From Bacteroidota bacterium (lineage in GTDB: Bacteria; Bacteroidota; Bacteroidia; Bacteroidales; UBA7960), in contig RECE01000185.1 of assembly GCA_007694165.1 (NCBI GenBank), positions 1-35,813 of the forward strand: DNA of 35,813 nt, in the 5' to 3' direction. The notes under the pieces are model-generated. The model ran no database searches. It had not been told where the DNA came from and saw only the letters and a program-made list of their open reading frames with translations. The position numbers and the translations under genes were made by a program. Below are positions 1 to 33,171 of the stretch, piece after piece (the stretch's first letter is position 1; every line of letters starts with the position of its first letter).

Positions 1-1824
1 GGAAATGGTTACATTGCTTTGTGCCGGATTGGGAAATAGCTTTAGGTTATGGCTCTTGTGTTGTTGAACAAAATCTACCAGGTCGAAATAGGCAATGAGT
101 GTAATGTCCTGTGCTGGCATGGAATAATTGAATGTTGGATCGGTGTATATGCTGCCGCTGCCCATTTCCAGCCACCTGATGAAACCATAACCTTCAGCAG
201 GTATGGCCGATAGCACAATTTCTTCTCCTTCCAGGTATTCTCCTGCTCCAGTGACTGTGCCACCCACCTGGGGTTGCCTTTGCAGTGTGAGGGTGTAAGG
301 AGGGTTGTCTTCACTGTAAAAATGCGCTGTGAGAGTGGCATTTTCAGCCGGCATGGTGTAAACCAACTGGGTTTGTGTTCCAATAACGGATCCGTTCTTT
401 CTCCAGTTGTGGAAAACATACCCCTGGTTGGGCGTAGCAGAGACTATTACCTGATCACCCTGATTATACGCACCATCACCGGATACCTGGCCACCCTCAT
501 GTGGCACGATCTGAAGCGTAAGCAGGTATTGGCCGGGTTCCCCATCTAAAAAATTGGCAGTGAGCGTGTGATCTTTGGCTTGCATAATATACTGAAAATC
601 TGGATTGGAACTTAACATGGTGCCATATTCATCTGTCCAGTTGAGAAACATGAATCCTGTGGATGGCAAGGCCTGCAAATATGCAATTTCCCCGGCCTGA
701 TAATAGCCGCTTCCGGCCAGGGTTCCGCTTCCTTCAGGACTTGCCTGCAGTAAAAGCTCAAAGTACTCTTCGCTGTAAAGTCCCCAGGTATCATTGATTG
801 TCATGTTTTGGGAAACAAAAATGGTTCTGTTTGGGTCACCCTCCCATTCGCCACCAGCCCAGCCGTCACCATAAGCATCAGAGAAGTATTTGTAGATATA
901 TTCTCCTGATTGCAATTCCATTGTGGTGCTGAAGATGGTGCCTTGACTATGGGTCATTTCAATGGATCCTTCATGGCCGGGCTCTGACCATCCAGTAAAA
1001 CTTCCGGTGAGGTAAACATTGTGCTGTTCGGGGTTAAATTCGGGAGTTTGAGCCATATTTACGTTGAAAGTGACCCAATGCATATCATCTGGTTCTCCCG
1101 CTATACCATATAGATTAAAAGCAAAGTCGTACTCAACTGGTCCAACTTTGGACTGACCCTCTGTACTTATGCGTGCGAGTTTGTTACTTTTGTTATTGTG
1201 GTTTTTCTGCCAGGAATGAAGGTCGTTGTCCACGGATTTATGCCATAAGAACCATCCATCACCATCCACAGATTGTACAGAAATCCAGCCGTTGGTAATA
1301 TAGGTGGCAGGTATGTTGAGCGTAAATTTCCAAACATTAAAACCTATTGACCATGGCTCTTGAGCATCAATGCTAGTGGTAGGTATATCCAGGTACTCGT
1401 TTGTCGGGCTTCCCCACTGTGGTTGATTAACGTTGTAAGGGTAGAATCTGATGTTGAAAAATAGTTGCTCGCCTGGGTCTGCATTTCCCCAACCTTCGCT
1501 ATCGATAATTGCGTACAGGCCAAACACTTCAATTTGGGTAACGCTGCCATTAACATCAGAAAAGTTATCTGCCACTTCATAATTGATATGAGTATGCAGG
1601 GCTGAAGTGTTTGCTCCGATATCACTTAAATCCATGTCCTGACCGTACAGTTCCCCGGGTGTGTTTTGGTTATGGTATGTGAAGTTGGCATAAAGAATTA
1701 GATTGTCTTCAGGAAGGGTAGTTGCCTCACTTTTTTTTTGCGTCACAGGCTGGGCGTAGCCAGTGCTTGTGAATAAAAACAATGCCACGAAAACAAAGGC
1801 ATTCAGTTGTAATTTTTTCATCAT
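1..1824 (-). CDS. Secreted T9SS protein with InlB-type repeats, partial (3' end outside window)
   Basis: Reading the minus strand from the ATG at 1824 gives 608 codons without a stop, so the gene runs off the left edge. The start MMKKLQLNAF is followed by a hydrophobic stretch ending in GYAQ, a clear Sec signal peptide (about residues 1-25). A second ATG at 1821 is equally possible; a TAA stop lies just upstream in frame. Residues about 30-245 look like a beta-sandwich with a VADNF motif, as seen in secreted Bacteroidota proteins. Residues about 250-350 contain VTFNVNMAQ and VYLTGSFTGW, resembling E-set/starch-binding-like modules. Three repeats follow from residues 355, 433 and 510. The last visible residues, LKLFPNPAQSNVTIS, are the beginning of a type A T9SS sorting domain. 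Most likely an exported or surface-attached protein; substrate unknown. Confidence 0.88.
   Translation of the reverse strand, partial: MMKKLQLNAFVFVALFLFTSTGYAQPVTQKKSEATTLPEDNLILYANFTYHNQNTPGELYGQDMDLSDIGANTSALHTHINYEVADNFSDVNGSVTQIEVFGLYAIIDSEGWGNADPGEQLFFNIRFYPYNVNQPQWGSPTNEYLDIPTTSIDAQEPWSIGFNVWKFTLNIPATYITNGWISVQSVDGDGWFLWHKSVDNDLHSWQKNHNNKSNKLARISTEGQSKVGPVEYDFAFNLYGIAGEPDDMHWVTFNVNMAQTPEFNPEQHNVYLTGSFTGWSEPGHEGSIEMTHSQGTIFSTTMELQSGEYIYKYFSDAYGDGWAGGEWEGDPNRTIFVSQNMTINDTWGLYSEEYFELLLQASPEGSGTLAGSGYYQAGEIAYLQALPSTGFMFLNWTDEYGTMLSSNPDFQYIMQAKDHTLTANFLDGEPGQYLLTLQIVPHEGGQVSGDGAYNQGDQVIVSATPNQGYVFHNWRKNGSVIGTQTQLVYTMPAENATLTAHFYSEDNPPYTLTLQRQPQVGGTVTGAGEYLEGEEIVLSAIPAEGYGFIRWLEMGSGSIYTDPTFNYSMPAQDITLIAYFDLVDFVQQHKSHNLKLFPNPAQSNVTIS
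70..762 (-). repeat. Three InlB-B-type (divergent) repeats in the left-edge protein
   Basis: Three protein repeats begin at residues 355, 433 and 510 of the minus-strand gene, spaced 78 and 77 residues. Each has the pattern (Y/F)xLxLQ, GxGxYxxGE/D, ATPxxGYxFxxW, a YxMPAxxxTLxAxF ending. This matches the divergent InlB B-repeat family, a small beta-rich module used as a spacer or binding unit in surface proteins. Confidence 0.75.
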
Positions 1825-1915
1825 GATTGCAATGGCTTAGTTAATAGTAATGCTGTTTTCTCCATCGAATGCGGTTTTGAGTTCCCTTTTGTTATGTGTG
1901 CTTTATAAGTAAATG

Positions 1916-1923
1916 CAAATATA
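1916..1923 (-). promoter_or_regulatory. Possible -7 box for the left-edge gene
   Basis: On the minus strand this reads TATATTTG, a full match to the Bacteroidota -7 element TAnnTTTG, and it is the only such match found on that strand between the two divergent genes. It lies about 90 bases before the ATG at 1824. No good TTTG -33 element is found 19-21 bases upstream, so the call is weak. Confidence 0.35.
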
Positions 1924-2325
1924 TTATTAAAACTTAAATAAAGTTAACAGAAAGCAAAAATCATAGGAGTTTAATATAGGCAAAACAGGTTTTATATCTT
2001 TCCCATAAAATTTGCGGAAAACGACTCAGAAAGGTGTCTTTTTTTCTTCTTAGTGATGCAAAGCAATTTAAATACATATATAGCTCCTGTTATAATCGAG
2101 AGCATATACCTGCGCACAGATGCAACTATATTCAATTTATCAGAGGATATTGTTTTTTATTTTATGTGAGCTAATTGTATCTGTCAGTAAAAAGACCCTT
2201 ATTATTGTCATTTCGTGGCCCTGACCAACATTTTCACCTAACCTATTTATATGTCGGTGGAAGATCAAGTGAAATCACCCGCTTTAAAACCGTAAAATAC
2301 GCAACTACTATCCGTGGAGCTACGG

Positions 2326-2356
2326 TTTGATAAGAGATTTATCTGATTTAGTTTTG
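2326..2356 (+). promoter_or_regulatory. Bacteroidota-type promoter for the giant-protein operon
   Basis: TTTG at 2326-2329 and TAGTTTTG at 2349-2356, with a spacer of 19 bases, match the Bacteroidota primary sigma consensus (-33 TTTG, -7 TAnnTTTG) at the preferred spacing. Transcription would start a few bases after 2356, giving a leader of roughly 185 bases before the ATG at 2550. No comparable promoter was found in the short gaps between the following four genes. Confidence 0.75.
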
Positions 2357-2539
2357 TAATAATCAGTTAATTAATGCCGCTTTTGAAATCGATTCTAAAT
2401 CTCAGTGAGTTAAGTCCTATTATTATTTGAGTTTATTGCGATTTATAAAGGTGGGTTTTATATTCAAGAGAACGTTTTGTGATTTGACGACAGAGCTAAA
2501 AACAAACCTAACAATTTACGCCAGGAAACTACCAATACG

Positions 2540-2545
2540 AAGGAG
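2540..2545 (+). promoter_or_regulatory. Ribosome binding site that decides the start at 2550
   Basis: AAGGAG lies four bases before the ATG at 2550. Strong Shine-Dalgarno sequences are uncommon in Bacteroidota, so its position supports this ATG over the upstream TTG at 2427. Confidence 0.65.
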
Positions 2546-2549
2546 CACG

Positions 2550-3593
2550 ATGAACAACAGGGAAGCCATACATCAATGGGTTGTCCAGGCCGCAAGGTTC
2601 GGTGTATTCCTGTTTTTTTATTTTACCCTGTTTTATGCTTCTGCCCAGGCCCCCCAGTTTTCGCAGTTTTATGCGGCTCCTCTTAATCTTGCCCCTTCCT
2701 TTGCCGGTGCTACCAATGGCAGCCGGTTGGTAATGAATTACCGCAACCAGTGGCCTCAGCTGGGCAATGCATTTGTAACCTACGCTTTTTCCTTCGACCA
2801 TTATTTTCACAATTACAGAAGCGGTGCCGGAGTGGTGCTCTTAAGAGATCAGGCCGGAAGCAGCCGCCTGGCCAATACCCGCGGAGGTCTGGTGTATTCC
2901 TACAATTTCAAGGTAGATCACCGCTGGACCATGCGCCCCGGAGTTCAGTTCCTTTATGAGCAGATTTCTATAGACAGAAACCGGTTGATTTTTGGCGACC
3001 AGCTATCCCTTACCGGGGATAATTCAAATTCCAGTCATACGAGTGTTGATATGGACCAGCGTGGGTATTTTGATGCTTCTTCTTCATTGCTGGTTTATTC
3101 GGCCAACACATGGGCGGGCTTAACCTTCGACAATATGATGCGCCCCAACCAGTCCATGACCAGTGGAGGTACCAGCAGGCTTCCCCTGAAATTTTCCGTT
3201 TATGGCGGTTATCGGTTCGATTATGGTGGCACCTACTCGCAGCAGGGGCATGAAAGTATTTCTATCGCTGCGCTTTATAAAAATCAGGGGACTTTTCACC
3301 AGTTCGACCTGGGAGTATACTGGTCGAAAGACCCCGTATCTCTGGGTTTGCTCTACCGTGGCATCCCTTTCCTGAAAAACCCTGCAGGGAGTATCATGAA
3401 CAACGATGCCCTGGTTCTGATGGGAGGCCTGCGCACACGCGACCTGCGCATTGGTTACAGCTATGACTTTACCATCAGCAGACTGATCAACAATACCGGG
3501 GGAGCCCACGAAATATCTGTTATCTATCAGTTTAACCAAATCCCAGCCGCCAAAAGGCATGGCAGGATACCTTGTCCCGACGGGCAATTGTAA
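2550..3593 (+). CDS. PorP/SprF-family type IX secretion system outer-membrane protein
   Basis: A 347-residue protein starting at the ATG preceded by AAGGAG. Residues about 1-33 form a signal peptide with a hydrophobic core (GVFLFFYFTLF) ending in ASAQA. The mature start, PQFSQFYAAPLNLAPSFAGA, is the family hallmark, followed by aromatic-rich alternating strands and a C-terminal strand ISVIYQF, as expected for an outer-membrane beta-barrel. The end IPCPDGQL resembles the CPxF-like tail of the family. SprF of Flavobacterium johnsoniae is needed for delivery of the giant adhesin SprB, and such genes usually sit next to type B sorting-domain proteins. The downstream giants fit that layout: 51 bases separate this gene from the first. 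Its partner is inferred from position only. Confidence 0.88.
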   Translation: MNNREAIHQWVVQAARFGVFLFFYFTLFYASAQAPQFSQFYAAPLNLAPSFAGATNGSRLVMNYRNQWPQLGNAFVTYAFSFDHYFHNYRSGAGVVLLRDQAGSSRLANTRGGLVYSYNFKVDHRWTMRPGVQFLYEQISIDRNRLIFGDQLSLTGDNSNSSHTSVDMDQRGYFDASSSLLVYSANTWAGLTFDNMMRPNQSMTSGGTSRLPLKFSVYGGYRFDYGGTYSQQGHESISIAALYKNQGTFHQFDLGVYWSKDPVSLGLLYRGIPFLKNPAGSIMNNDALVLMGGLRTRDLRIGYSYDFTISRLINNTGGAHEISVIYQFNQIPAAKRHGRIPCPDGQL

Positions 3594-3644
3594 GATGAGA
3601 AAAGTTTGATGTATCCCTCCTCTGAGGAGGTAAATTACAGAAAT

Positions 3645-6600
3645 ATGAAAAAATTTACGTTACAAACCATTATTTTTCTGATTATTACCCTGCAGGCTGC
3701 AGTGGTGAAGGCTCAGGATGTAGTGGATACCCTTTTTTATGAAGCTTTCAATGCTAACTTCATGCCTGCGGGATGGACGCAGGATAGGATTGTTTTCCAG
3801 AATCAGGATCCCCCGGATATTCATTTGCGTTGGAAATTCGAACAGGGGGTTGGTGTCACCGGAGGAATCCCTAATGCAGCAAAAGTGGGTTCTCATAACC
3901 TCTCTTTCCAAAAGCAGGGCAACTTTAGTTATGTAACCAAAATTATTACACCACCCATCGTGGTGGAAGGAGGAAATACATTCAAACCTGAGCTACGGTT
4001 CTGGCATGCCCAGCATGAACTCATTTTCTCAATAAATCCACCCAATTTTCGCAACGATTACTTGAAAGTCTATTACCGTCATGGTTTGAAAGGGGAATGG
4101 ATGGAGTTGATGCATTACGAATCACCCAATTCTCCTTGGGAAGCAAGGGCTCTGCTATTACCCGCTGGCCTTGACACCACTTACATCGCCTTTGAGGGGA
4201 TTACCAATTGGGGTGGCGGCGTGGTTGTGGATGAAGTGCAGGTTGTAGAAACCGAAGAATGGGAAATGTTCCTGGCAGATGTAACCACCCAGCGACCTAC
4301 CAGTGCCCGTATTGCTGCCGGTACCCAAAACAACCCCGTGAGCCGCACCCGTTTGCTGATTAGGGGAAATACAGGTGAATACACGCTCAGTAAATTTACA
4401 GTCGGATCCGGAAATACCACAGACGATGACCTGATGCCCCAGGGGGTAAAACTCTACCTTACCCGCGATCGCAATTTCTCTACCCAGTTTCCCGTGGGAA
4501 ACGCAATGGATTTTGTGAATGGCATGGCCGTTTTTGACAATTTGGATCTTACCCTGGCTGACGGATATTCCTACATCTGGGTTACGTATGACATAAAAGA
4601 AGATGCCGGAAACCTCCATAGGGCCAACTCCTGGATTCCTGCAGGGGGTATTTTGGGTTCCTGCAATGTGGCGCTTCCTGATGAAAACCAAAATCCGTTG
4701 GGCTCCCGCACCATATACCGCACCATTTTGTATGATGATTTTGAATTGGAAAACGGTTGGGAGCTTACCGGAGAGTTTGAAATCGATGAACCCCAGGGAC
4801 GGGGCGGAGCAGCCGAAGTGGGAGGGGGCGGAAACCCCGGACCCTCAAAAGCATTTATTGGCAGCAGGGTGCTGGGAACAGACATCACCGGACTGGGCAG
4901 CTCGCCAGGTAATTATGAACCCGACCTGGAAGAAAAAGCATGGACCGCCACATCTCCTTCCTTTGATTGTACCTATTATGGCGAGGTAACCCTCTCTTTT
5001 CAAAGATGGCTCAATGTATTCTATTCGGGCTATGAAGATAAAGTGAGTGTAGATGTAAGCATTGACGGAGGTGCCACATGGGGGGAAGTATGGCGAAATG
5101 ATGTGTTCGTGGGGTCCGCCATCAACTGGAGCGAGCAAACCATTGCTATACCCCAGGCAGATCGCCAGCCCAACGTAAAAATCCGTTTCACCCTGGGACC
5201 CACATCGTCCAATAACAATTACAGTGGCTGGCATGTGGATAACCTGATGGTGACCGGTAACTTTATTACCAGGGATACAGGCGTAACCGGCTGGCTTTAC
5301 CCTCAAACCGGCTGCGGTCTTACAGAAAATGAGGGAGTGGGTATTGTGGTGAGAAATTTTGCCATTGAACCTGCACCCGAAAACCTGCCTGTGGGTTACT
5401 CCTTAGACGGAGGCGCCACCTGGCATAAGGAATATATTGCCCAGCCCATCCCCTCAGGCGAATCAGTGACCTATGTTTTCAACACTAAGGTTGATTTGTC
5501 CCAGCCGGGGAATTACACCCTGCAGGCACGCACTTTTCTCGCAGATGATCAGTTTGATGACAACGACCAGTACAGCAAAGATGTTTTTTCCATTCCTACC
5601 TACAGCCGCCCTTATGCCACCGACTTTTCCGACAACAACGGATATTGGTTACCGGGAGGGCCTTCCGGATCATGGGAATGGGGTGTCCCTTCCGGAGCGG
5701 TGCTCAACAGTGCTTTGGAAGGCGCAAAAGCATGGGGTACCCATCTTGCCGGTGCTTATCAGAACAATGAAACAGGGTGGATTGAAAGCCCCTGTTTTAC
5801 TTTCCAGGAAGAAGATTACACGGTGCTGCAATTCATGCTCCAGACCCATACCCCCGAAAATGACGGAATAACTTTACAGTATTCACTCAATGAAGGTGCC
5901 AGCTGGCAGCTGATGGAAGCCTGGCAGGATACTTTGACCTGGAACTGGCATGATTCGGAGGCAATAGGATGGCTGGCATCCCGGTTTGGCTCAGGGAAAG
6001 GTTGGACAGGCGAAACCCTTCCTCCCAGACAAGTAAGGACAGTTTTGCCATTGTCCTTTAAAAACCAGGAGAAGATTCGGTTCCGGCTCGCTTTTGCCGG
6101 TGGTGTCAATGAATCTTTCGAAGGAGTTGTTTTTGACTCCTTTCGTCTGTATCAGGCCCCACCTGATGTGGGTATTGCACAGATAACAGAGCCTTTGGAT
6201 GATTGTATCCTTTCGCAGAATCAACCGGTGACGGTGGAGGTTTTTAATTACGGAATCAATGCTTTGCCTGCCGGAACCCAAATTCCGGTTTCCTTGCAGC
6301 TGGGAGCCTATGATGAAGTTACGGAATTGCTGGAGCTTGCTCAACCCCTTGCAGCAGGAGAGTCGGTCGCATATACCTTTGATGCCAGGTTTGATATGAC
6401 TGCCCCGGGAGATTATCCCGTGCTGGCATACACCGCATTGTCCGGCGATGATGGATTTTACCATCCCGGCCTGAGCAACGACTCTCTGCAAACCAGCGTC
6501 ACGGTTTTCGGTTTTCCCGAACCCGACCTGGGAGGGGATATCTGGTCGATTGTGCCCGATACACTGGAATTGCAGACTGCCGAAAGCTATGTGGCTTATC

Positions 6601-9600
6601 TGTGGCAGGATGGTTCTGATAATGCAACGTTTCAGGTAAGTGACCTGGCAACCCAAATGTACAAGGTTACTGTAACCGACGAAAACAATTGTGCTGCCTC
6701 CGACTCCCTGTGGGTCTTTGCCCACGATTTGCAAATGAGTGCTTTTGTGGCACCCGTGGATACCTGTATTTTTGAACATGAACAACCCATAGGGGTTCTG
6801 CTGGAGAATACCGGCCCGGGATTGCTGGCCGCAGGGGCAGAAATTGATGTGGTGCTTTATTATCAGCAGGCTTTTCTGGTGGAAGAAACCATCACCCTTG
6901 AGCAGAATTTATTGCCCGGAGAGGGACTTCAACATGTTTTTTCGGTTTTTCCCGACATGACGCCCCTGGGTATTTATGAACTAAGTGCTACGCATGCTTT
7001 CCCCGATGGCAATCCCGTCAATGATCAACTGACCGTGGAAGTGGAGTCCATCGGATACCCCATTATGGATATGGTGTCCGAGGTTATTACTCCCGATCCT
7101 CTAACGGTGTCGGTAGATGCAGGCGAAGGTTTTCATACCTATCTGTGGACCACCGGCAGTGAAGACCGTTTTCTTTTTCCTGAAGAATTTGGTGACTACG
7201 GGGTTACCGTAGGAAATGTCCTGGGATGTGAAACTTCTGCATCCGTTGCTATCATTCCCCAATACCTGGATCTGGAACTGGCCGGTGTGCTGGCGCCGCA
7301 GGTAATTTGTGCCGAAACCGGTGCAGTGGAAGTTGTTATTGAGATTCTTAACCATAGCAATGTTACCCTGGACACAGGTACCGGCTTTTCTGCTTCTTAT
7401 CGTTTCAGAAACAATGACTGGGTGGAGGAAGATGTGTTGCTGGAGGCTGACCTTGCACCGGGCGAATCAACTGTGCATGCTTTTACTACTTTAATCAACA
7501 ATATCGGTTCCGACACCTGGCAGCTGGAAGCAGCCCTGGATTTTGAGGGAGATGAAGATGATACCAACGACCTTCTGCAAGTTTCGAGAGGGGTTTACGA
7601 CCTGCCTGTACCGTTGTATTTCAATGAAATATATACCCTGCAGGCTGATACCCTTTTGCTGGATGCGGGTGAATTTGAAGGATATTTCTGGAACGATGGG
7701 TTCACAGGTCAGTTGTTGCCTGTTACCAGCCTTTCCAGTTATGAATATATCGTTACGGTTACCGACTTCAATGGTTGTTCGGGAACGGCATCGGTGCAGG
7801 TGTGGGCTTACGACCTCAATCTGGAAACATTGCTCCATCCTGTAAGCGATTGCACCATGGGTACAGAGGAGACAGTCACAGTCATGGTTAAAAATTCCGG
7901 ACACGATGTATTCGTGGACGGAGAAATATTTCCTTTGTCTTTATACCTTGACGAGACCTGGGTTGCTACCGAAGATTTGATTTTGCAGGAAGACTTGCTA
8001 CCGGGAGCCACCATAGCATTTGATTTTCAGACTACCCTTGATCTTTCGGAAATTGGTGTTTACCAGATTAAAATTTCTCACACACTGGCAGATGCAGTTG
8101 AAGAAAACAACATACTGGATCAAACCGTGGAAACCTTTGGCAATCCCGTTATTCCTTTGGTCAATGAAGTTTACACCACCCGTGCCGACACCCTGGTATT
8201 CGATGCCGGAGGTGGTTTTGTGGCCTGGCTGTGGCAGGATGGTTCCCAGGAGCAGTTTTTCACCCCCGATGTGATGGAGTCAGCCGAATATGTAGTGACG
8301 GTGCAAGATAGCAATGGATGTTTTTCCACCCACAGCATCTTTTTGCATGCATGGGATTTGTCAGTGAGTGAGCTCGTTTCACCGGCTAATCACTGCGAGC
8401 TGCCTGTAGAACCCGACGAAATTACCATCAGAATTGAGAATACAGGTCATGATAACTTTTTGGCTTCCACAAACATACCCCTCACACTGAAGCAGGGGGA
8501 GGATATACATACTGAAACCCTGGTGCTGGAAGAAACCCTCCATCCTGGCGAGTCTTTGTTGTACACTTTTTCCATCCCGTTTTTTACAGAAGAATACGGT
8601 GCCTATCCTTTTGAAATTTTTCATGGGTACTTTGACGCCCAGCCGGCCAATGACACATTGGTAAAAACCGTGTATATTACTGAGGAACTGATGGTTTTCC
8701 TGGGTGACGATATTTACTCCCTTCAGGCCGATACACTGGCCATTGATGGCGGGGGAGAATATGTTGCCTGGCTCTGGCAGGATGGATACGAAGGGCGGTT
8801 TTACACCCCTGATCAGCTGGAATCGGGGACTTACTCGGTTACGGTAACTGACATTTACGGTTGTGTGGGCAGTGCGTCGGTCAATGTGTTTGCTTTTGAT
8901 TATGCCATTGAAGAGCTGCTGGCTCCCTTGAGCAATTGCACCTTGTCGGGCGGAGAACATGTGGTGTTCAGGCTGGCCAACAGGGGACACGATGTTTTTG
9001 ATGCGGGGCAGGTTTTGATTTTTGCCTTTGAGGTGGAGGAACTGGCTGCATTCCAGGAGGATTTCGTTCTTGAAGAAGATTTGCTACCCAACCAAACCCT
9101 GATACTTACCACCGAAAATAGCTTTGATTTTTCTGCTGCCGGTTTGTATCCGCTCACCATTGAGTTGCTGCTCACCGATGCGAAAGATAGTAATAACGTA
9201 TTGACAGAAAATGTGCATGTTCCGGGATTGCCCTTGGTGAATCTGGGGGAAGACCTCCTTACCACACGTGCAGACACCCTTATGCTGGATGCCGGAGCAG
9301 GATTTAGCGCTTATTTATGGCAGGATGGTCACACCGAACAATTTTACACACCGCCAGTAATGCATTCCGCAACTTACTCGGTCACGGTTACTGATCAATA
9401 CAATTGTACAGCCTCAGGTTCCATCACCCTGTATGCGCACGATTTGGCCATCACGGCCCTTACCAGTCAGCAGGAGTTTTGCGGTCTGCCGCAGGGGCCC
9501 CAGGATATTACTGTGCAACTCACCAATACCGGTCATGACATGATTGTTGGTGGCCAGGAGATTTCTCTGACCCTGGTGCTCGGGGAAGAAACGGTGGAAG

Positions 9601-11339
9601 AACAGATAATTCTCGGGTCTGTAATGGCACCCGGAGATACGCTCTTCCATATTTTTGACAAAAAATTTGAGCCCGTTGATATCGGGTCTACACAACTGGA
9701 AATCTGGCATGACTTTGCCGATGCCCTTTCTGCCAATGATACACTGGTAGCAGAGTTGATAGTTCACGAACCCCCCGTTGCCGATCTGGGCCCGGAAATC
9801 TATACCCTCCAGGCTGACACCCTGATGCTGGATGCGGGAGAATCTTTTGTTTCTTACCTGTGGAATGATGGTTCTGAAGAGCAGTTTTTTACACCGTCTG
9901 TTCTGCATTCAGCTGTTTATTCGGTAGTGGTCACTGACGAAAATAACTGCACGGCCGAAAGTTCGGTGCAGGTGGTTGCCAATGATATTGCCGTTGCTTC
10001 CCTTGTTGATCCGGGTACGCTGATTTGCGGACTGCCGCAGGAACCTCTGCCGGTTTCGGTATTGCTTGTCAATACAGGTCACGATATACTGGCTGCCGGA
10101 TCCACCATTCCGGTCGGACTGGAGTTGCAATCTGTGGAATACCCGGAAGATTTGGTCTTGTTGCAGGATTTTGCTCCGGGCGATTCTCTGGTGCATCTCT
10201 TCGCGCAAACTTTTACCCCCGATGCTTTCGGAGACTATGCACTGGTTCTCTGGCATGGTATGGAAGATGTGGATCCGGGCAACAACAACCTGTCTGTTAC
10301 CATGGGTGTGCATCCCGCAGTATTGCCCGATCTGGGACCTGACATTTATACCCTTAGCCCCGATACCCTCTTGCTGGACGCCGGAGAAGGATACCATACC
10401 TACCTATGGCAGGATGGTTCGCAGGGAAGGTTCTTCACGCCCACGGCCATGTATTCGGCTGATTACAGCGTGGTAGTCTCTTCCGAAGAGGGCTGCCAGG
10501 GTACAGCTACCGTTAGGGTGAATGCTTTTGATTTTATGGTGGAACAACTCATTGCTCCCACCAGCAATTGTGCGCTCAGTGATGCAGAAAATCTGGTGTT
10601 CTCTTTACTCAATAACAGCCAGGACACCATTGCTGCAGGAGTCGACTTACCCTTCAACCTCAGAATAAACAATGATCTATGGCTGGAGGAACTGCATACG
10701 ACAGCTCAGGAGCTTTTGCCCGGAGAATCCCTGCAAATCACCTCCCACAATACATTTGATTTTTCTGGCGTCGATGATTATAATGTAGAGATTGCTTACA
10801 CCGGCACAGACGCCAATCCTGTCAATGACCTGCTTGAGACAGTTGTGCAGGTTACAGGGTTACCCTTTGTCTTTCTGGGGGAAGATATTATAACTTCCCG
10901 TCCCGATACCCTTGTGCTCGATGCAGGACCGGGTTATGCCTCCTATCTGTGGCAGGATGGTTCTTCCGGTTCGCAATATCATCAGGTACAGAATTTTGGC
11001 CTTCACTGGGTGGAGGTGACTGACCCCTGGGGTTGCCGGGCATCGGATACCCTGGAAGTTATATTGAGTACAAGGTTGTTAGATATTACTCACAACACTG
11101 TAATAAAAGTCTTTCCCAACCCGGCGGATGATTATCTTTACGTCCGTTTGGAAATGCCCGTTGAGAAGGTTTCTGTGGGTATAACCGATTTAACAGGAAA
11201 GCATATCAGAACGAATGATTATGAGAGGATTGGGAGAGAAGACCTTCGGCTGTCGGTGAGTTCGCTTCCCCCGGGCATGTATTTCCTGACCGTAATGATG
11301 AACGGCCAGCGGGAAGTGATACGGTTTATCAAGAAATAA
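3645..11339 (+). CDS. Giant secreted protein: MAM-like domains, nine 181-residue CARDB/Ig-like modules, type A T9SS tail
   Basis: From the ATG at 3645 the product is 2564 residues. MKKFTLQTIIFLIITLQ followed by VVKAQ is a typical signal peptide; an in-frame TTG (3606) and ATG (3609) upstream would only add a polar extension. Residues about 27-210 and 361-543 look like MAM/choice-of-anchor jelly rolls, separated by a segment (211-349) resembling the sialidase N-terminal BNR-associated domain. A CARDB-like domain (545-652) and a third jelly roll (655-836) follow. Residues about 841-2475 are nine tandem modules, each a CARDB-like half and an Ig-like half with DTLxLDAG, YLWQDGS and SVTVTD motifs. 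Residues 2480-2564, with IKVFPNPADDYLYV and LPPGMYFLTV, are a type A T9SS sorting domain. Probably an extended surface or matrix fibre. Ligand unknown. Confidence 0.9.
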   Translation: MKKFTLQTIIFLIITLQAAVVKAQDVVDTLFYEAFNANFMPAGWTQDRIVFQNQDPPDIHLRWKFEQGVGVTGGIPNAAKVGSHNLSFQKQGNFSYVTKIITPPIVVEGGNTFKPELRFWHAQHELIFSINPPNFRNDYLKVYYRHGLKGEWMELMHYESPNSPWEARALLLPAGLDTTYIAFEGITNWGGGVVVDEVQVVETEEWEMFLADVTTQRPTSARIAAGTQNNPVSRTRLLIRGNTGEYTLSKFTVGSGNTTDDDLMPQGVKLYLTRDRNFSTQFPVGNAMDFVNGMAVFDNLDLTLADGYSYIWVTYDIKEDAGNLHRANSWIPAGGILGSCNVALPDENQNPLGSRTIYRTILYDDFELENGWELTGEFEIDEPQGRGGAAEVGGGGNPGPSKAFIGSRVLGTDITGLGSSPGNYEPDLEEKAWTATSPSFDCTYYGEVTLSFQRWLNVFYSGYEDKVSVDVSIDGGATWGEVWRNDVFVGSAINWSEQTIAIPQADRQPNVKIRFTLGPTSSNNNYSGWHVDNLMVTGNFITRDTGVTGWLYPQTGCGLTENEGVGIVVRNFAIEPAPENLPVGYSLDGGATWHKEYIAQPIPSGESVTYVFNTKVDLSQPGNYTLQARTFLADDQFDDNDQYSKDVFSIPTYSRPYATDFSDNNGYWLPGGPSGSWEWGVPSGAVLNSALEGAKAWGTHLAGAYQNNETGWIESPCFTFQEEDYTVLQFMLQTHTPENDGITLQYSLNEGASWQLMEAWQDTLTWNWHDSEAIGWLASRFGSGKGWTGETLPPRQVRTVLPLSFKNQEKIRFRLAFAGGVNESFEGVVFDSFRLYQAPPDVGIAQITEPLDDCILSQNQPVTVEVFNYGINALPAGTQIPVSLQLGAYDEVTELLELAQPLAAGESVAYTFDARFDMTAPGDYPVLAYTALSGDDGFYHPGLSNDSLQTSVTVFGFPEPDLGGDIWSIVPDTLELQTAESYVAYLWQDGSDNATFQVSDLATQMYKVTVTDENNCAASDSLWVFAHDLQMSAFVAPVDTCIFEHEQPIGVLLENTGPGLLAAGAEIDVVLYYQQAFLVEETITLEQNLLPGEGLQHVFSVFPDMTPLGIYELSATHAFPDGNPVNDQLTVEVESIGYPIMDMVSEVITPDPLTVSVDAGEGFHTYLWTTGSEDRFLFPEEFGDYGVTVGNVLGCETSASVAIIPQYLDLELAGVLAPQVICAETGAVEVVIEILNHSNVTLDTGTGFSASYRFRNNDWVEEDVLLEADLAPGESTVHAFTTLINNIGSDTWQLEAALDFEGDEDDTNDLLQVSRGVYDLPVPLYFNEIYTLQADTLLLDAGEFEGYFWNDGFTGQLLPVTSLSSYEYIVTVTDFNGCSGTASVQVWAYDLNLETLLHPVSDCTMGTEETVTVMVKNSGHDVFVDGEIFPLSLYLDETWVATEDLILQEDLLPGATIAFDFQTTLDLSEIGVYQIKISHTLADAVEENNILDQTVETFGNPVIPLVNEVYTTRADTLVFDAGGGFVAWLWQDGSQEQFFTPDVMESAEYVVTVQDSNGCFSTHSIFLHAWDLSVSELVSPANHCELPVEPDEITIRIENTGHDNFLASTNIPLTLKQGEDIHTETLVLEETLHPGESLLYTFSIPFFTEEYGAYPFEIFHGYFDAQPANDTLVKTVYITEELMVFLGDDIYSLQADTLAIDGGGEYVAWLWQDGYEGRFYTPDQLESGTYSVTVTDIYGCVGSASVNVFAFDYAIEELLAPLSNCTLSGGEHVVFRLANRGHDVFDAGQVLIFAFEVEELAAFQEDFVLEEDLLPNQTLILTTENSFDFSAAGLYPLTIELLLTDAKDSNNVLTENVHVPGLPLVNLGEDLLTTRADTLMLDAGAGFSAYLWQDGHTEQFYTPPVMHSATYSVTVTDQYNCTASGSITLYAHDLAITALTSQQEFCGLPQGPQDITVQLTNTGHDMIVGGQEISLTLVLGEETVEEQIILGSVMAPGDTLFHIFDKKFEPVDIGSTQLEIWHDFADALSANDTLVAELIVHEPPVADLGPEIYTLQADTLMLDAGESFVSYLWNDGSEEQFFTPSVLHSAVYSVVVTDENNCTAESSVQVVANDIAVASLVDPGTLICGLPQEPLPVSVLLVNTGHDILAAGSTIPVGLELQSVEYPEDLVLLQDFAPGDSLVHLFAQTFTPDAFGDYALVLWHGMEDVDPGNNNLSVTMGVHPAVLPDLGPDIYTLSPDTLLLDAGEGYHTYLWQDGSQGRFFTPTAMYSADYSVVVSSEEGCQGTATVRVNAFDFMVEQLIAPTSNCALSDAENLVFSLLNNSQDTIAAGVDLPFNLRINNDLWLEELHTTAQELLPGESLQITSHNTFDFSGVDDYNVEIAYTGTDANPVNDLLETVVQVTGLPFVFLGEDIITSRPDTLVLDAGPGYASYLWQDGSSGSQYHQVQNFGLHWVEVTDPWGCRASDTLEVILSTRLLDITHNTVIKVFPNPADDYLYVRLEMPVEKVSVGITDLTGKHIRTNDYERIGREDLRLSVSSLPPGMYFLTVMMNGQREVIRFIKK
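6165..11066 (+). repeat. Nine-copy 543-base protein repeat (CARDB plus Ig-like module)
   Basis: The Leu codon before the WQDG motif, or its equivalent, falls at 6600, 7143, 7686, 8229, 8772, 9315, 9858, 10404 and 10947. The intervals are 543 bases seven times and 546 once, that is 181 or 182 codons. The copies differ substantially in sequence. Each carries one Cys near the start of the CARDB half and one near the end of the Ig-like half. Confidence 0.92.
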
Positions 11340-11371: not shown

Positions 11372-14300
11372 ATGACAGGAAGAATACACACAGCAAAGCA
11401 AACTTGTAATGGCGCTCCAGCAAAAGGGTCGGCAAAAGGTTTGTATGTTTGGGTAAGGTATTTTCTTGCGATAGTGGTATTATTGGGTTTGACCCTTGAC
11501 TGCGTTTTATCTTTTGAAGTATATGCTGCAGATAATAGGTTAGTGTCTGCAAAAAACACCAAAAATGTTACGTGGGATTCACCTCCTTCTTTTTGTAACA
11601 ATACCGGACTGCAGGTTTTAACCGGTGCGCTGCCGGAAGGAGGAGCGTATAGCGGTACCTATGTTGATAAGGGCGAATTCGACACTGATGCTGCCAATCC
11701 CGGGGGGCATTGGGTAACTTATTCTTATACAGATGGTATGGGAAACAGTTCTTCTTCAGACGCTTTGATCATCGTCTTTGAAAACCCTCAGGCGGATGCC
11801 GGTGAAGCCATTGTTGTACCAAACGGTGGGCAAGTTGTTTTGGATGGATCTGCAACAGAAGGATCGGAGCCTTATGATTGGCAGTGGAGTCCTGCTGCGA
11901 TGGTAAATAATGCGAATATTTCCGGCCCGCAAACATTACCCATGGGCAATACGGTTAATTTTACGCTTACTGTAAGCGATGCAAATGGTTGTAAAAGCAC
12001 TGACAATGTTGTTGTGGCTGTTGCGAATAGTACTATTGTCTCTTTAATGCCTTTTGATCCGGTTTGTGTAAGTCAGAGTGTTGTTGGGCTCACCGGGGGA
12101 AATCCTTTGGGTGGAAAGTATTATGTCAATAACCAGACATCATCTTCTGAATTTGTTATACCCGCCAACCTTGGACCGGGAGAGCATCAGATTCATTATT
12201 TGGTTACAGACAACAATGGCCACATCAGCTGGGCTTCTCAAATACTTACCATATATCCTTTGCCCCAGATAGAGTGGGCAGGTGCGGGATTTTGCGATTA
12301 TGGAGGTTGGGTTGATCTGGAAGGAGCGCTGCCGGAAGGTGGAACCTATTTTGGGAATCATGTAATCAACAATCGGTTTAACCTCTCTCAGGCAGTCCCG
12401 GGACTTTATTCTATCTATTATACGCTAACGGACGCAAATGGGTGCAGTGCTACAAAAAATGCCATGGTAGAAGTACATAAACCTCCCCATGCCGAAGCAG
12501 GCCCCAATCAAACCGTTGTATTGGGTGAAACAGCCTGGTTGACGGCAGAGGATGGCGGAGAAAATGTCTATGAGTATGAATGGTCTCCTTCCGCCCTTTT
12601 GCCAGACCCGATGCTTCAGGTAGCAGAAACACATCCGTTAATTTCCTCCCAGGTCTTTAACCTTATTGTAACCGATTTACACACAAAATGTGTAGCGGAT
12701 GATTTTACTATTGTTCAAATCAGTGGGGGTGATGTAGAAATCACAAACGTTACTTATGGATCGTCTGTATGTTACGGAGACACTGTTTCTTTTGAAGTCC
12801 TTGCGGGAGGAGGAAGTGGAAATTACAACTATTATTGGTATAATACCCCACCTCCGTTTGGATTCCATATGAACCTCGATACAGGCAATCCGGTTTGGAA
12901 ATTTCAGGCTACAACCTCAGGCAATTTTACGTATTATTTAAGAGTAGTAGATGGTAATGACCCCAGCCAGTATGCCGATGGCGCTGCCGTTATTGACGTT
13001 TTTGAATTGCCTGTAGTGAATCTCGCAGATATTCACCCGGTTTGTGCCAATTCTCCCGGCTATTTCTTCCCGGATTATGAGTTTGGCATTTATTATATTT
13101 ATCAGGAAGTAGGTGGTTTTCAATATGAAATCCCCATTCCCTATAACCCTTATCCGTATTTCAATCCTGCTCAAATAGGAGAAGGAGAGTACACGGTTAT
13201 TTACGAGGTAACCAATGAGCATGGTTGCAGCAACAAGGCAGAAACGGGTTTTGAGATATGGCCCTACGTAAAAGCAGAATTTTATCTGCGTGTACCCGAT
13301 CGTTGTTTCAGCAATGCTATCACCATCAAGAATGATTCAAAGGGTGCTAATTCTTTCGTCTGGGATTTTGGAACCGAATTAGCCAATATTGAATTTCCTG
13401 ATGGCTGGACTCCCGATATGGTGGAGTTTGATCTGGTGTACCCAACTGTTACTGCACCTCAGGAATTTACCATCACCCTTACTGTTGAGGATGAGGACTC
13501 GGAATGTGATGATGTAATTTCCCGCTCTTTTACCGTTTATCCCAGGGCTGAGGCCTTTTTTGTGGGTGAGTATGATGGGTGCGCCCCCCATACCATTCAG
13601 TTTGAAGATCAATCCACCACCGGCCAGGCACTATACCATTTCTGGCGCTTCGGTGATGGTTCGCTCAGCATGGAACCCAACCCTGAGAAGACCTTTTACA
13701 ATTTCAGCCCTGTTGATTCGGTATTTACCGTAAGCCTTACCATTGCCACACAGGATTATTACTGCACCGAGACCTATAGTGCCGATGTAACGGTTTACCC
13801 GCAGACAGTTCCCGGTTTTGCCATCGACCCGGTGGAGCATTGCAGCCCTTATGAAGCCGTTTTTTCCAATGAAGCACTGCACGCCGAATGGATTACTTTT
13901 GATATGGGAGAAGGTACTTCGTTTACCACGGATGAGCCTGACACCCTCATGACATTTGTTCATGAGTATACCAACCTTTCTGCCACACCCGATACCCTTT
14001 TTGTAACCCAGACCATCGGGTTGGATCGCAACGATGACCAGGTGTGTGTAAAAGAATTTACCCGCCGGCTGGTGATTTTGCCCCAGGTGAAGGCAGTGCT
14101 TACAACTATCAACGTGGCACCTGAAGAGGGAGAGGATTTTGTTGCCGTATGTGCTCCTTTTACGGTGGAGTTTTCCGGAACCAGCTCTCTCAACGGACAT
14201 TCATTCTCCTGGATTTTTGATGACGGTGGTACTTCATCTGCAGCCGAACCTTCTCATACTTTTTACAATCCTACAGGATCTGTTATTGAACGTGAGGTCA

Positions 14301-17300
14301 TTCTGCGCACCGAAACCCTTTATGGTTGTGTGGATTACGATACCTTGATGATACACGTGCTGCCCGAGGTACATGCCAATTATACTTTCCTCCCCCAAAG
14401 CGGGTGCAGCCCGCTGGAAGTGGCTTTCACAAATACTTCTGTTTCCGGGTCTGCCATGACATGGTCCTGGAGTGATGAAAATGGCGATTTTTCTCAACAA
14501 CAACATCCATTGCATACTTTTTGGCATACATTGACGGAGTCTGTTCCGCAGGAATACCAGGTGCAGCTGCTGGCAGTCAACGCCCAGGGTTGCAGCGACT
14601 ATGTTGCTTCGGTTATCACCGTGAATCCCGAGGTGCAGGCCCATATCCATACGGAACCTGCACACACCGCCGGGGTACTGGAGGTTTGTGTGTCGGAAAC
14701 CATCAGGTTTTATGCAGAACATACCAACGGACCCAGCATGCATGCAGACTATTACGACTGGAGTTTTGGTCATGGCGATGCTTCTTCAGTGTCCATGAAC
14801 CCGGAGTTTACCTATCACCAGCCCGGAACTTACACGGTTACGCTGGGCGCATCTTCCCAATATAACTGCAGTGATGAGGCCATATTGACCGTTGTTGTTC
14901 ATCCCCTGCCCAATCCTGCATTCACCATTGATGTGGCCCAGGGATGCAGTCCGATGGAGGTAAATCTGAATTATGGTGCAGCACCGGTAGCCGGCTGGAC
15001 TTACCTGTGGGACTTTGATTTTGACGGTACTCCCGACTATACTTCCTATGCCCATGATGCCTTGCCTGCTTCCCATACTTTCACCAATACGGGAACAGAG
15101 ATAGAAACCTTTACCATGCAATTTCGCATTGAATCACCACAGGGTTGTGCCGGACAATTCTCCCGCGATGTGGTGGTCTGGCCCGAAGTGTCGGCCGTAA
15201 TTAAAACTACCCCGGAGCATGTTGATCATGAGCTTAGCTCCTGTGCCCAGTTTGAAGTGGCTCTGGATGGCTCTGAGTCGCACAATGCTACAGAATTCTT
15301 GTGGGATTTCGGCGATGGAATCACTTCCACACAGGCCAGTCCGGTGCATACCTTTTTGAATTTTGACCCGGAAAATGCGGTTACGTACAATGTACTGCTT
15401 ACCGCCCGCTCTCAGATTGGCTGTTTGGCCCAGGAGACCCTGCAGGTGGAGGTTACACCCAGGCCTTTGGCAGGATTTGCCGTGGTTATGCCATTGGCAT
15501 GCTCACCGGCTGAGGTTGAGTTTATCAATACCTCCATAGGTGCGACAGCATACGAATGGGATTTTGGCGATGGGAATGCTTCCATCGGGGACAATCCAAC
15601 CCATGTTTATGAGGTTTCTGCCGATGATTCCCCCACCACCTTCACCGTTACCCTGCGTGCCATCAACGATGGTTGTGAAAATGTCTATCAGCAGCAAATC
15701 ACCATCTATCCCTATCTGGAGGCAGATTTTGACTTTGAAATCATCGGAGATGGTTGTCATCCCCTTGCCGTCAATTTTACCAATACCACTACAGGTCATC
15801 CTGACCATTTGACATTTACCTGGAATTATGGTGATGGGAATTCCTCCTTTACTGGCAATGAAATCCATCAGCATGTTTTTGAGAATTTCAGCCCTGATAC
15901 GGATCAGACTTTCACCGTTCAACTAACAGCATCTTATGGGGATGTATGTATTGATGTGGTTGAAAAATATATTGTAATTCCTGCGCGACCCAAAGCTTTG
16001 TTTACCGTACCCAACAGCCCCGGTTGTGGCCCCCATGACATCGAGGTGATCAATCTTTCGGAAGGTGCAGTGGCGTTTCAGTGGGATTTTGGAGATGGTT
16101 CTGACTTTGTTCTGGACGAACACCCTGCACCTCACACTTACACGCGCACACCCGAAGAGGGTCCGGGCAATTACATCATTCAGCTGCACGTAACCGGCGC
16201 CAATGATTGCGTGCAGGTGTATGAGCAGGAAATATTGATTTACCCTGAAATTCATGCGCTGTTTTCCATGGATGATGCAGCAGGATGTCATCCCCACACG
16301 GTGGAGTTTACCAACCATTCAACCGGGGTGGAAACCTACTCCTGGAATTATGGCAACGGGCATACTTCCGGTGTTGCCGGGGAACTGCATTCTCGTACTT
16401 TCAACAATTTCAGCCATAGTGAAGAGGAGGTATTTACTGTAACCTTGCAGGTGGTTTCCGAATTTGGTTGTATGGATGAGATTTCTGCGGAGGTAACTGT
16501 TTATCCTGTCCCTGAGGCCGCTTTCCATACCAGCACGGCAGGGGGGTGCTCAACCTTGGAGGTGGAGTTCTTCAATACCTCCAACGGAAAAGGATTGACC
16601 TTTGAGTGGGATATGGACAATGGAACGGAAACCATTTTTGCCCAATCACCCCCTGCTCAGTTGTATGAGGTAGGTGCTGATCAGATACTTACGGTTTTTA
16701 GCCCCACCCTTACCGTCACCAACCCACAGGGATGTGTCAATGTCATCACCCATGATATCTATGTGTATCCTGAAGTGGAAGCTGCTTTTGAAGTCAACGT
16801 GTCAGAAGGCTGCCACCCCCTTACGGTGGAAATTACCAACCTGAGCGAAGGGGATTATGACCATCTCAATTTTGAATGGGATTACGGCGACAATCATACC
16901 TCTGAAACCCAGGCCGGAACTCACAGCCATACCTTCTACAATTACAGTCATGATACCGATGAGACTTTCATCCTGCGGCTTACGGCATGGTATGCCGATG
17001 AGTGTGTGGATGTTTTTGAAAAAGAAATTACGGTACTGGCCCGCCCCAAAGCTTCTTTCACCGTGTCCAACAGCCCGGGTTGTGCCCCGCATCCCATTGA
17101 AGTGGTGAATCAGTCGCTGGGTGCCGTTTCATGGAGTTGGAATTTTGGTAATGGAAGTGAACCGGTTGAAGAAGCTAATCCGGATCCGGTTACTTACACC
17201 CAACCTGCCGATGCCGGTGCAAAAGTATTTACCATTACCCTCGATGTGGAAGGTCTCAACGAATGTCCACACCAGTTTACCCAAGATGTGGTTATTTTCC

Positions 17301-20197: not shown

Positions 20198-20221
20198 TTT
20201 TGTTACTAAATATTTAGGACC

Positions 20222-23200
20222 ATGCGAATACGACACATCCTTTTCTTGCTTTTACTTTCCTTCTCAGTTTCGGGCAGCTTTGCCCAGACTGCTAAGGAGT
20301 TCTGGTTTGCTGTGCCCAAAATTACCAAAGACCACCCTAACAATGCACCCAACACTCCTGCCAACTGGCGTTTTTTCTTCCGGTTTACCAACATGAATAA
20401 AGCTCATGAAGATAATCCTAATATCATCACCATCTCCATGCCTGCCAACCCGGCCTTTAATCCCCTGGTACTGGAAATGGATCCAGGAGGTATTGCCAAT
20501 ATCGATGTAACTGCTATTATTGAAGATATTTGGGTGACTGCTCCATGGGACGCCGCCTTAAGCAATGAACGCACCTATAACAGAGGTATTCTAATCGAAT
20601 CTCTCTATGATATGACTGCTTACTTTGAAGTGGGCAACCACTTTAATCCGGATATTTTCTCGTTGAAGGGATACAACGCTTTAGGTACCGACTTTTTTGT
20701 GCCCTTTCAGAACAGATCTCACAATGGTGGCTATAACCCCGATCGCCCCTACTCAGGGATTTACATTGTTGCTACAGAAGACAATACCACGGTTACTGTC
20801 ACTCCCTCCAGGCCGGCATTTGCCAATCAACCGGCAGATGTACCTTTTGATGTGGTTCTGAACCGCGGACAAAGTATTTCGATTTCTCCTCGTAACTATC
20901 TGGCAAATGCCGGACGATTGCCCGAAAATCGTCTTGCAGGAAGCCGGGTGCAATCAGATAGGCCCATTGCCATCACTACCAGCGATGATTCCGTTCATGG
21001 CATCACAGGATGCTTTGACCTTATTGGCGACCAGCTCATCCCTACCAACATTATCGGTACCGAATACATTGCCATGAAAGGGCGACTTACTGCATCTGAG
21101 TATTTTTACATAATTGCCACTCAGGATGAAACCGAAGTTTATCTTGATGGCTCTGCTGAAATTTATGCTACCCTGGATTATGCGGGTGATATGCTGAGAG
21201 TTGAATTCACAAAAGGAAGCTACCATATCCGAACCACCGAACCTGCGTATGTATACCATGTTGGGGGATTTGGCTGCGAAGTAGGAGGTGCGGTTCTGCC
21301 ACCGGTAAGTGTGTGCACCGGATCATTTAAGGTAGCATTTACCCGCTCCAAAGCTGAGCGGTTCTTCCTGAACATCCTTGTAAGAACCGGGGCAGAAGAT
21401 GGGTTTAAGTTAAATGGTGGTGCAGAAAATATGGTAATCAATGCCGCACAATTTCAGGCGGTACCTGGCACTGCTCAATGGCTCATGGCCAATATTGAAA
21501 TGAACCTGGCAACGATACCTGTGGGGGTTGCCACATTCATTGAAAACTCAAAAGATGTATTCCACCTGGGTATTATCAATGGAGGACCTTCAACAGGCAC
21601 CATGTACGGCTATTTCTCCAACTTCAACGAGTTAAAGGTCAATGCAGGTATTGGGAGTATTGGAGAAGGTGTCGATGGTCTCTTGTTCTGCTATGGAGAG
21701 TCTCAGCAACTGGTATCTACCGATGGAGTGAGCCATTACTGGTATCCGTCAGACTACCTGGATGATCCCCACAGCCAGAATCCCGTTACCAGCCCTGAAG
21801 AATCCATCGTTTACAATGTGGTGATTACCGGAGCCTGTCAGGTTACCGCAACAGCGCAGGTGGTCATCTATCTGATGCCACCGGTCAATGCACTCTTTAC
21901 CATAGATGAATCCATAGGGTGCGCTCCTTTTGATGTGCAGATAACCAACCAAACCCAGAATGTTTTTTACTACGCCTGGCAATTCGGAGATGGGCAGGGG
22001 TCGCATACGAATAATGCCACATTTACCCATACCTATCACAATTCCGGTCCCGATCCTGTAACTTATGATTTACAACTGGCAGGGTCTTTGGCCTTTTGTT
22101 CGGATACAGTTTCCACTCAAATCACCGTTTTGCCCCAGGTGCGCACACGCATTGATATCGATGGACATGTGCCCGATGACCAGGGAGTCATTTCCCTGTG
22201 TGCTCCTTTTGAGCTGGAATTTACCCATAAGGAAACCCTCAATGTACAGCAGTTTTTCTGGGACTTTGGCGATGGCAATACTGCTTCCTCCGAATCGCCT
22301 TCTCACACTTTTTATAACAACACTTCAGAACCGGTAATACGCACTGTTTATCTGCACGGCAGTTCGGAATTTGGAACCGACGGTGCCTGCGAATCGGTGG
22401 ATTCGGTAATGATAGAAGTCAGACCCGCTATTTCGGCCGGTTTTGTTTTTGATCCGCCTACCCATTGTAATCCCTACCCAATTACTATTACCAATACCAC
22501 CACGGGAGCCGGTAACAGTTACTGGGATTTCCTCAACGAGTCAGATACCCTGATCAATGACCAACAATTTACCCATTGGCTGGTAAACGAAACCCAGGAA
22601 ACAGAGCACACTATCCGTCTTTATGTGGAAAACGAATACGGCTGCTTTGATGAGCTGGAACGCACAGTAACCGTTTATCCGCTTCTCACGGCTGAGTTTG
22701 AGCCTTTGGAGTCGGTGGTGTGCGAGCCGGGCTTCATCGATTTTCCACATTCTTCCGTAGGAGCGGCAGAGTACCACTGGAATTTTGACGGCGCCGGCAG
22801 CTCTTCGCTGGAATTTCCCCAAAACATCCGGTTTGAGAACCACGATACTGAGAATGACAAGGTGTACAATGTGAAGCTCACTACTATATCCCAGTATGGA
22901 TGTGTGGAAGAGAAAATAGTTCCTGTAACCGTTGCTCCCAGGTTGAAATCCGGTTTCAGTATTGCATCCCCGGATTTGTGCAGCCCCCATGGCGCTGCGG
23001 TTTTGCAAATTCAGAACAGCAGCATCGGAGCCACGAGTGTGGATTGGCTCATAACCAATGATTATGATGCTGCGGAAGTTGCATTCAATGAAAGTGCAGC
23101 ACAGTTTGCCCACACCTTCAACAACACAACAGATGTACCCGTGACGTATACCATCACCCAGCGGGTGGAAAACCACCGTGGTTGCAACGAAGCAAAATCT

Positions 23201-28239: not shown

Positions 28240-28557
28240 ATGACCTTCGAAGAATTTAATACCCTCAAAGCAGAACAGCCTGCAGTGATGCTGTACTTTT
28301 TTAATGATGTTTGCGGGGTATGTCATACCCTCCGTCCTAAAGTGGAAAACCTGTTGATGGAAGAATTTCCAAAAGTAAGATTTGTGCCCGTGAATGCCCT
28401 GGAAAGCATGGAGCTGGCAGGCCAGTTGCGTATGCTGAGTGTGCCGGGGATGTTGCTGTTCCTGGATGGGAAGGAGTATTTGCGCTACAATGGTATGGTT
28501 TCCCTGCAGGAGCTGGAGTCAAAAATCTTCAGGCCGTACCATCTGATGTTTGATTAG
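28240..28557 (+). CDS. Thioredoxin-family protein
   Basis: A 105-residue protein, the normal thioredoxin length, starting MTFEEFNTLK. It has the strand MLYFFNDVCGVCHTL with the redox pair Cys25-Cys28 (CGVC rather than the CGPC of classical thioredoxin), and the cis-proline strand SVPGMLLFLDG (Pro69). As called it has no signal peptide, so it would act in the cytoplasm as a disulfide reductant. It follows the PKD giants by 62 bases on the same strand and is probably the last gene of the unit. An upstream in-frame ATG at 28123, inside the previous gene, would add a basic and hydrophobic N-terminus. Its 3' end overlaps the convergent kinase gene by 29 bases. Confidence 0.82.
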   Translation: MTFEEFNTLKAEQPAVMLYFFNDVCGVCHTLRPKVENLLMEEFPKVRFVPVNALESMELAGQLRMLSVPGMLLFLDGKEYLRYNGMVSLQELESKIFRPYHLMFD

Positions 28558-32181: not shown

Positions 32182-32219
32182 AAGGGTTTGTTTCGAAAAG
32201 GTTTGATGGTGCTTGTATT

Positions 32220-33161: not shown

Positions 33162-33171
33162 ACTCTTCCTT

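Follow-up and report, generated by a model that had tools for sequence, protein, structure and literature searches.

Equal module lengths in a type IX-secreted repeat protein of Bacteroidales, a probable stalk of alternating CARDB and Ig-like domains

Fibrillar adhesins and Periscope proteins are long surface proteins that carry tandem stalk domains (consulted parts of PMC8286594 and PMC8201768). The protein described here, P0001, likewise has tandem stalk domains, nine units of CARDB plus Ig-like domain; its modules are divergent, and their order is the same as in the array of a sister genome over the part compared. No adhesive domain was recognised among the Pfam matches of P0001, and its N-terminal Reelin-like region is a candidate. 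The grappling hooks of Aureispira, built from GhpA, are heptamers of a protein secreted by the type IX secretion system (T9SS), according to the part of PMC11205867 consulted; the neck of GhpA offers the closest structural comparison for the predicted CARDB-Ig pair among the matches listed. For type B proteins of the T9SS, PorP-like anchoring has been proposed (PMC9143113, consulted in part). A PorP/SprF gene and two giant proteins with CHU_C-like tails, as in SprB/PorP-type systems, share a tight gene row with P0001, which differs by its type A tail. The CARDB family itself (PF07705) resembles the modules in the fold of the CARDB half of our predicted model; the alternation with an Ig-like domain and the conserved cysteines set the present array apart. 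Tandem repeats in bacterial DNA that keep one size while their sequence varies have also been described and, as far as the part of that source consulted goes, are a different object (PMC8161180). The papers listed on indel rates and compensatory indels held nothing usable, and no description of an order-wide family of T9SS CARDB-Ig stalks was met in curated domain models or among the matches listed in the literature.

The window analysed here is the whole stretch of 35,813 nucleotides of contig RECE01000185.1, from a Bacteroidales assembly (GCA_007694165.1). P0001 is encoded by an ORF at 3606..11339 on the forward strand (2577 aa as listed); the ATG at 3645, ahead of a hydrophobic stretch that by eye looks like a signal peptide, is a likelier start. 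The N-terminal region includes a Reelin-subrepeat-B-like stretch at 5037..5252 (+) (PF21471, residues 478-549, 43.7 bits against a cut-off of 27, the better of two such stretches) and, ahead of the array, an isolated CARDB-like domain at 5268..5588 (+) (module profile match 68-176, E 7.4e-7). The protein ends in a T9SS type A sorting domain at 11109..11318 (+), which matched Por_Secre_tail (residues 2502-2571, E 1.1e-12, 48.5 bits against a cut-off of 27) and TIGR04183 (E 3.7e-10, 39.6 bits against 23). Directly upstream, at 2427..3593 (+), lies a gene for an outer-membrane protein of the PorP/SprF family (PF11751, E 2.2e-58). Downstream follow two giant PKD-array proteins, which served as controls: P0002 (11372..20197 (+), 2941 aa), with a CHU_C-like tail just under the curated cut-off, and P0003 (20222..28177 (+), 2651 aa), with an IgGFc-binding domain and a CHU_C tail. 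Because these four ORFs (2427-28177) share a strand with intergenic gaps of only 12, 32 and 24 bases, their arrangement suggests one operon.

Along 2427-28177, the type A protein sits after a gene of the PorP/SprF family and ahead of two giant PKD proteins whose tails are type B-like. In two of four further loci examined, relatives of the stalk gene are likewise flanked by giant PKD proteins, which have either a CHU_C tail or a weak match to CHU_C (L151:2803-8619 (-), L151:14649-21098 (+) and L157:2063-8734 (-)); the upstream neighbour of a paralogue in the window's own genome (L057) is an FMN oxidoreductase. By eye, many domains of the PKD arrays at 11372-28177 have a C-x-P motif near their start and a conserved-looking late cysteine, a pattern that recalls the CARDB and Ig cysteines described below. 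Elsewhere in the window, an ORF with divergent InlB B-repeats (Flg_new_2) at 1-1824 (-) runs past the left edge, and 28529-35622 (-) holds genes for a TPR histidine kinase and for three proteins that resemble an ordinary threonine gene row: threonine synthase, a GHMP kinase and aspartokinase-homoserine dehydrogenase.

An earlier note on this DNA had described nine modules of exactly 181 codons, with an anchor codon recurring every 543 bases in seven of eight steps and after 546 in the other. The recurrence was borne out by nine Trp anchors, in the motif aromatic-[LF]-W-x-x-G, at residues 1000, 1181, 1362, 1543, 1724, 1905, 2086, 2268 and 2449; the steps, in order, are six of 181 residues, one of 182 and one of 181. 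The description of the modules needed some adjustment. Nine anchors bound eight modules, each an Ig-like domain followed by a CARDB domain, although nine CARDB+Ig units do fit in 6165-11066, where nine CARDB domains alternate with nine small Ig-like domains. On the forward strand, the array opens with a first CARDB domain at 6162..6515 (module profile match 69-180) and continues with module 1 (6519..7061), module 2 (7062..7604), module 3 (7605..8147), module 4 (8148..8690), module 5 (8691..9233), module 6 (9234..9776), module 7 (9777..10322) and module 8 (10323..10865), all of 181 aa except module 7 at 182. It closes with a ninth Ig-like domain that has no CARDB after it (10866..11066; profile match 2-67 at 10869-11063), in which the last cysteine of the ORF is residue 2477. 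Nor is the length exact throughout: stepping from one CARDB cysteine to the next, which includes the first unit, gave 187, 181, 181, 181, 181, 181, 182 and 181, and in the alignment the first CARDB domain carries a 6-residue insertion that makes its unit 187 aa.

Internal lengths vary as well. Five segments were measured, each running from one residue-checked anchor to the next, the anchors being W, C, C, N, N and the W that follows. Modules 1, 3, 5 and 8 share segments of 29, 25, 14, 71 and 42 residues. Relative to these, module 2 (27, 27, 14, 72, 41) differs by -2/+2/+1/-1, modules 4 and 6 (29, 25, 15, 70, 42) by +1/-1, and module 7 (29, 26, 15, 70, 42) by +1/+1/-1. The strong difference in sequence between modules was confirmed, the eight full modules having pairwise identities of 24-44% in amino acids and 40-54% in nucleotides. 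Tandem Repeats Finder, with a longest period of 500, reported nothing in the window; a direct-repeat finder detected the diverged copies at the 543/546 spacing.

Profile matches and the predicted structure identify each repeat as one CARDB domain together with a small Ig-like one. P0001 as a whole scored 34.2 bits against the CARDB model (cut-off 22.7), though no single stretch passes alone; taken by itself, the Pfam model matched one of the eight window modules (E up to 1) and nine of 79 modules (E up to 0.01). A model of a CARDB domain with the following Ig domain, predicted from the nine window rows, had a mean pLDDT of 91.8 and a pTM of 0.76. Its CARDB half resembled solved CARDB structures (3idu_B, Z 11.3, rmsd 2.5 over 102 residues; 2kl6, Z 10.9), both of them of PF1109 from Pyrococcus furiosus. 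Among the matches listed, the highest Z spanning the whole predicted pair was that of the GhpA neck (9flp_A, Z 9.8, rmsd 4.1 over 154); 9flp was also the first match of Foldseek, and six other GhpA entries stood at Z 8.2-8.5 among the matches listed (the GhpA entries named include 9flp, 9fls, 9flv and 9g8b). The likeness is moderate, unrelated multi-Ig proteins reaching Z 8.2-8.8 at larger rmsd among the matches listed. No GhpA chain appeared among sequence-profile matches of the 8-module profile (E up to 1) or the 79-module profile (E up to 10), with which a distant kinship is still compatible. The resemblance of the predicted pair to GhpA is one of fold and domain order only. A model of two modules was weak (mean pLDDT 71.2, linker stretches below 50) and cannot fix the orientation of one module to the next; its PDB matches were beta-sandwich proteins of many kinds.

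Two cysteines were invariant in 79 of 79 aligned modules; in this alignment the 71 rows from outside the window were limited to spacings of 175-190 and include only two first modules. The Trp was invariant too, partly by construction, modules having been chosen by it. The window ORF has 22 cysteines, 18 of them at the CARDB and Ig sites and none elsewhere in the array. By standard Ig topology, the CARDB cysteine, which follows the second short strand, would lie at the pole facing the next domain, and the Ig cysteine, which precedes the last strand, at the pole facing the previous domain. Of 298 neighbouring pairs, 297 had both the CARDB cysteine and that of the next Ig domain. Within a module, where the Ig and CARDB cysteines are about 25 residues apart, 246 of 266 pairs had both; the 20 incomplete pairs (14 without the first cysteine, six without the second) were mostly weak profile matches at array ends. 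All 58 arrays with at least two anchors end on an Ig cysteine, 51 begin with a CARDB cysteine and 53 alternate strictly. The seven that do not begin so comprise four cut by contig ends, two affected by a 170-residue cut, whose first CARDB cysteine is present in the separate pair count, and one (G213) with Phe in its place. This pattern suggests a putative disulfide linking each CARDB cysteine to that of the Ig domain after it. A same-module disulfide is less favoured because it would leave the last Ig cysteine alone in 58 of 58 arrays, unless a later cysteine were used; seven of the 58 have a further cysteine after the array.

The copies in the array are old, and their order is common to the sister genome (G033). 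In a tree of 138 of the 140 collected modules (two fell outside the length filter), window modules 2-8 pair in order with modules 1-7 of the sister array, with support of 100/99 or 100/100. Window modules 4, 6 and 7 and their sister copies form one clade (100/97), module 2 sits in a clade (99/84) made mostly of the third modules of relatives, and the closest company of modules 5 and 8 in the tree is with modules that stand last in two other genomes. The two arrays differ by 173 substitutions and no gaps over 1300 residues; the N-terminal regions, compared through a separate contig of the sister genome taken for the start of the same gene, differ by 150 substitutions and three gaps over 1003 residues. 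The dN/dS between the arrays is 0.145 (dN 0.072, dS 0.500). From this value and the one-to-one orthology we conclude that the copies are old and their sequence constrained; the earlier note's picture of free sequence did not hold, as the invariant cysteines also attest. Modules 6 and 7 (9234-10322) have a low dS relative to the sister array (0.19 and 0.28, as compared to 0.46-0.90 in modules 2-5 and 8), which could reflect local recombination.

Relatives were sought in the family and the order. Counting the genome of the window itself, 23 of 47 genomes in the same family matched the modules at E up to 1e-10. Of 21 ORFs examined (again with the window's), 18 had at least two anchors and yielded 72 spacings: 181 in 47 (among them seven from the window and six from the sister), 182 in 19, 183 in five and 180 in one. 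Across the order, 56 of 393 genomes, again counting that of the window, matched at E up to 1e-25. Of the 55 others, 37 supplied 40 loci, drawn from the better matches; in these other families the 175 spacings that fell between 130 and 240 spanned 142-212, and just 24 of them were 181. The earlier note had held that homologues whose modules vary freely in length would refute selection on length. Module length does stay at 180-183 within the family; since the 40 loci vary from 142 to 212, freely varying homologues are largely what was found outside it. When named genomes were scanned with this protein's N-terminal region as found in six relatives, 36 loci came up. Matches covering most of that region lay in metagenome-assembled genomes of Bacteroidota, for the most part under the label Bacteroidales or Bacteroidetes and in one case Sphingobacteriia; short matches extended to Cloacimonadota, Phycisphaerales and others. 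Such relatives point to a Bacteroidales source for the window.

Indels proved scarce between orthologues. Across 11 five-anchor orthologues, the N-terminal 950 residues had 35 indel events to 4381 substitutions and the array 5 to 4461, or 7.99 and 1.12 indels per 1000 substitutions, rates that rest on fast trees and simple indel coding. Pairwise gap openings over the 55 orthologue pairs, per 100 substitutions, were 1.83 in the N-terminal region and 0.35 in the array. Among the window's own modules the figure was 2.39 at 34% identity, which is not below the N-terminal 1.83. The scarcity of indels that the earlier note anticipated is therefore firm between orthologues, but these figures do not show it for the window's own paralogues. 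The regularity of the window array exceeds chance, the neighbouring PKD arrays being less regular: with spacings limited to >75 and <100, those arrays, whose period is about 87 aa, covered 85-90 with an sd of 1.55 in 12 steps and 85-93 with an sd of 2.52 in 16 steps, compared with an sd of 0.33 on 181, and at 29-30% identity they showed 3.42 and 5.82 gap openings per 100 substitutions.

The lengths of the segments bear on what is conserved. In the family, each internal segment is nearly fixed in length; in the other families of the order, the lengths drift. The five lengths of 29, 25, 14, 71 and 42 were identical in 41 of 70 family modules (two of the 72 were dropped for want of checked anchors). 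Of the 29 off this template, 23 do not sum to 181; the six that do are window modules 2, 4 and 6 and their sister copies. The first two segments correlate at -0.97 over the 72 family modules, and none of 5000 shuffles was as even. Most of this negative covariance traces to a single inherited -2/+2 difference that separates two module types and is repeated over many rows; combinations between the two types, such as (29,27), (29,26) and (28,27), occur in other families. Parsimony in the family counted eight total-length events against 13 segment-length events, over about 6680 substitutions in 69 modules. Shuffling the segments gave 0.0085 for the nine distinct family patterns and 0.00215 for the eight window modules (0.0048 or 0.0215 after collapsing modules 4, 6 and 7 to one); these values are post hoc, since this array was picked for its constant spacing. 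Across the order, no compensation between segments was seen in either the variance or the shuffle tests. Total-length variance exceeded the summed segment variances in 149 modules (27.1 as compared to 19.2; 25 dropped) and, with three segments, in 170 modules (31.96 as compared to 22.4, or 12.5 and 11.4 for lengths of 175-195 only), and for 87 distinct patterns the shuffled variance was smaller or equal in 0.9958 of trials. Because total variance exceeds the sum of its parts, nothing holds total length outside the family, and a general constraint on length is ruled out by this lack of compensation together with the spacings of 142-212. The conserved quantity is mainly each segment, not the sum.

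We consider it likely that P0001 is a T9SS-secreted stalk whose equal module length is a by-product of old copying and of a fold constraint against indels. The events may have been as follows: one ancestral module of 29+25+14+71+42 residues would have been copied into an array, purifying selection on a compact two-domain beta-sandwich unit would have removed most indels, and equal module length would have arisen from this constraint and common descent. The CARDB-Ig disulfide would staple the unit, giving a stiff rod that, by analogy with other tandem stalks, could hold the domains of the N-terminal region, which may bind a ligand, at a distance from the cell. A fold constraint on its own does not demand everything observed: the cancelling changes in the window, the family correlation and the eight against 13 events all go beyond it. 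These same observations are what selection on module length itself, as the earlier note proposed, would predict. A periodic filament, regular stacking or lateral packing would let indels persist only if compensated, as they are in window modules 2 (-2/+2, +1/-1), 4 and 6 (+1/-1), and the shuffle values for the window, the nine patterns and the 72 family modules, like the family range of 180-183, point the same way. Yet the array was chosen for its regularity, the -2/+2 change is a single inherited paired difference counted many times, with intermediate combinations elsewhere, and most off-template family modules do not return to 181. Even in this array the first unit is 187 and module 7 is 182, and the order shows no compensation at all. 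The claim thus keeps the scarce indels and the cancelling in the window on its side, with no sign of it beyond this lineage, within which alone selection on total length is possible; as the explanation of the equal modules we think it rather unlikely. A more specific version appears improbable: in this family, the CARDB-Ig pair would be a rod unit stapled by its disulfide, and compensating indels would keep its residue count at 181-182 because successive or adjacent chains pack in register in a surface filament, with a layout like that of GhpA.

Chance would account for the equal steps if indels are rare enough to make them unremarkable, the cancelling being luck and choice of example. It is consistent with length changes being rare (47 of 72 family spacings are 181) and with the modules that cancel back to 181 being confined to one ascertained array and its sister, but it leaves unexplained about seven times fewer orthologue indels than in the N-terminal region, and we regard it as doubtful at best. 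Equality maintained by recent tandem duplication or gene conversion is hardly credible. The clade of modules 4, 6 and 7, and the grouping of modules 5 and 8 with the last modules of others, do indicate duplication at some time; the high nucleotide identity by which the earlier note would have recognised recent copying was looked for and is absent (40-54%), and recent tandem duplication is ruled out by that divergence, by the lack of any repeat reported by Tandem Repeats Finder and by the ordered, one-to-one orthology with the sister.

The array belongs to an ordinary kind: it is a probable stalk, secreted by the T9SS, in which CARDB and Ig-like domains alternate and the unit is probably stapled. 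A constant period in divergent repeats need not imply selection on length, and comparing segment lengths and their covariance across relatives is a cheap means of discriminating between the two. For the Bacteroidales, the finding points to an order-wide family of T9SS stalks with a conserved inter-domain cysteine pattern that may be tested as a structural staple.
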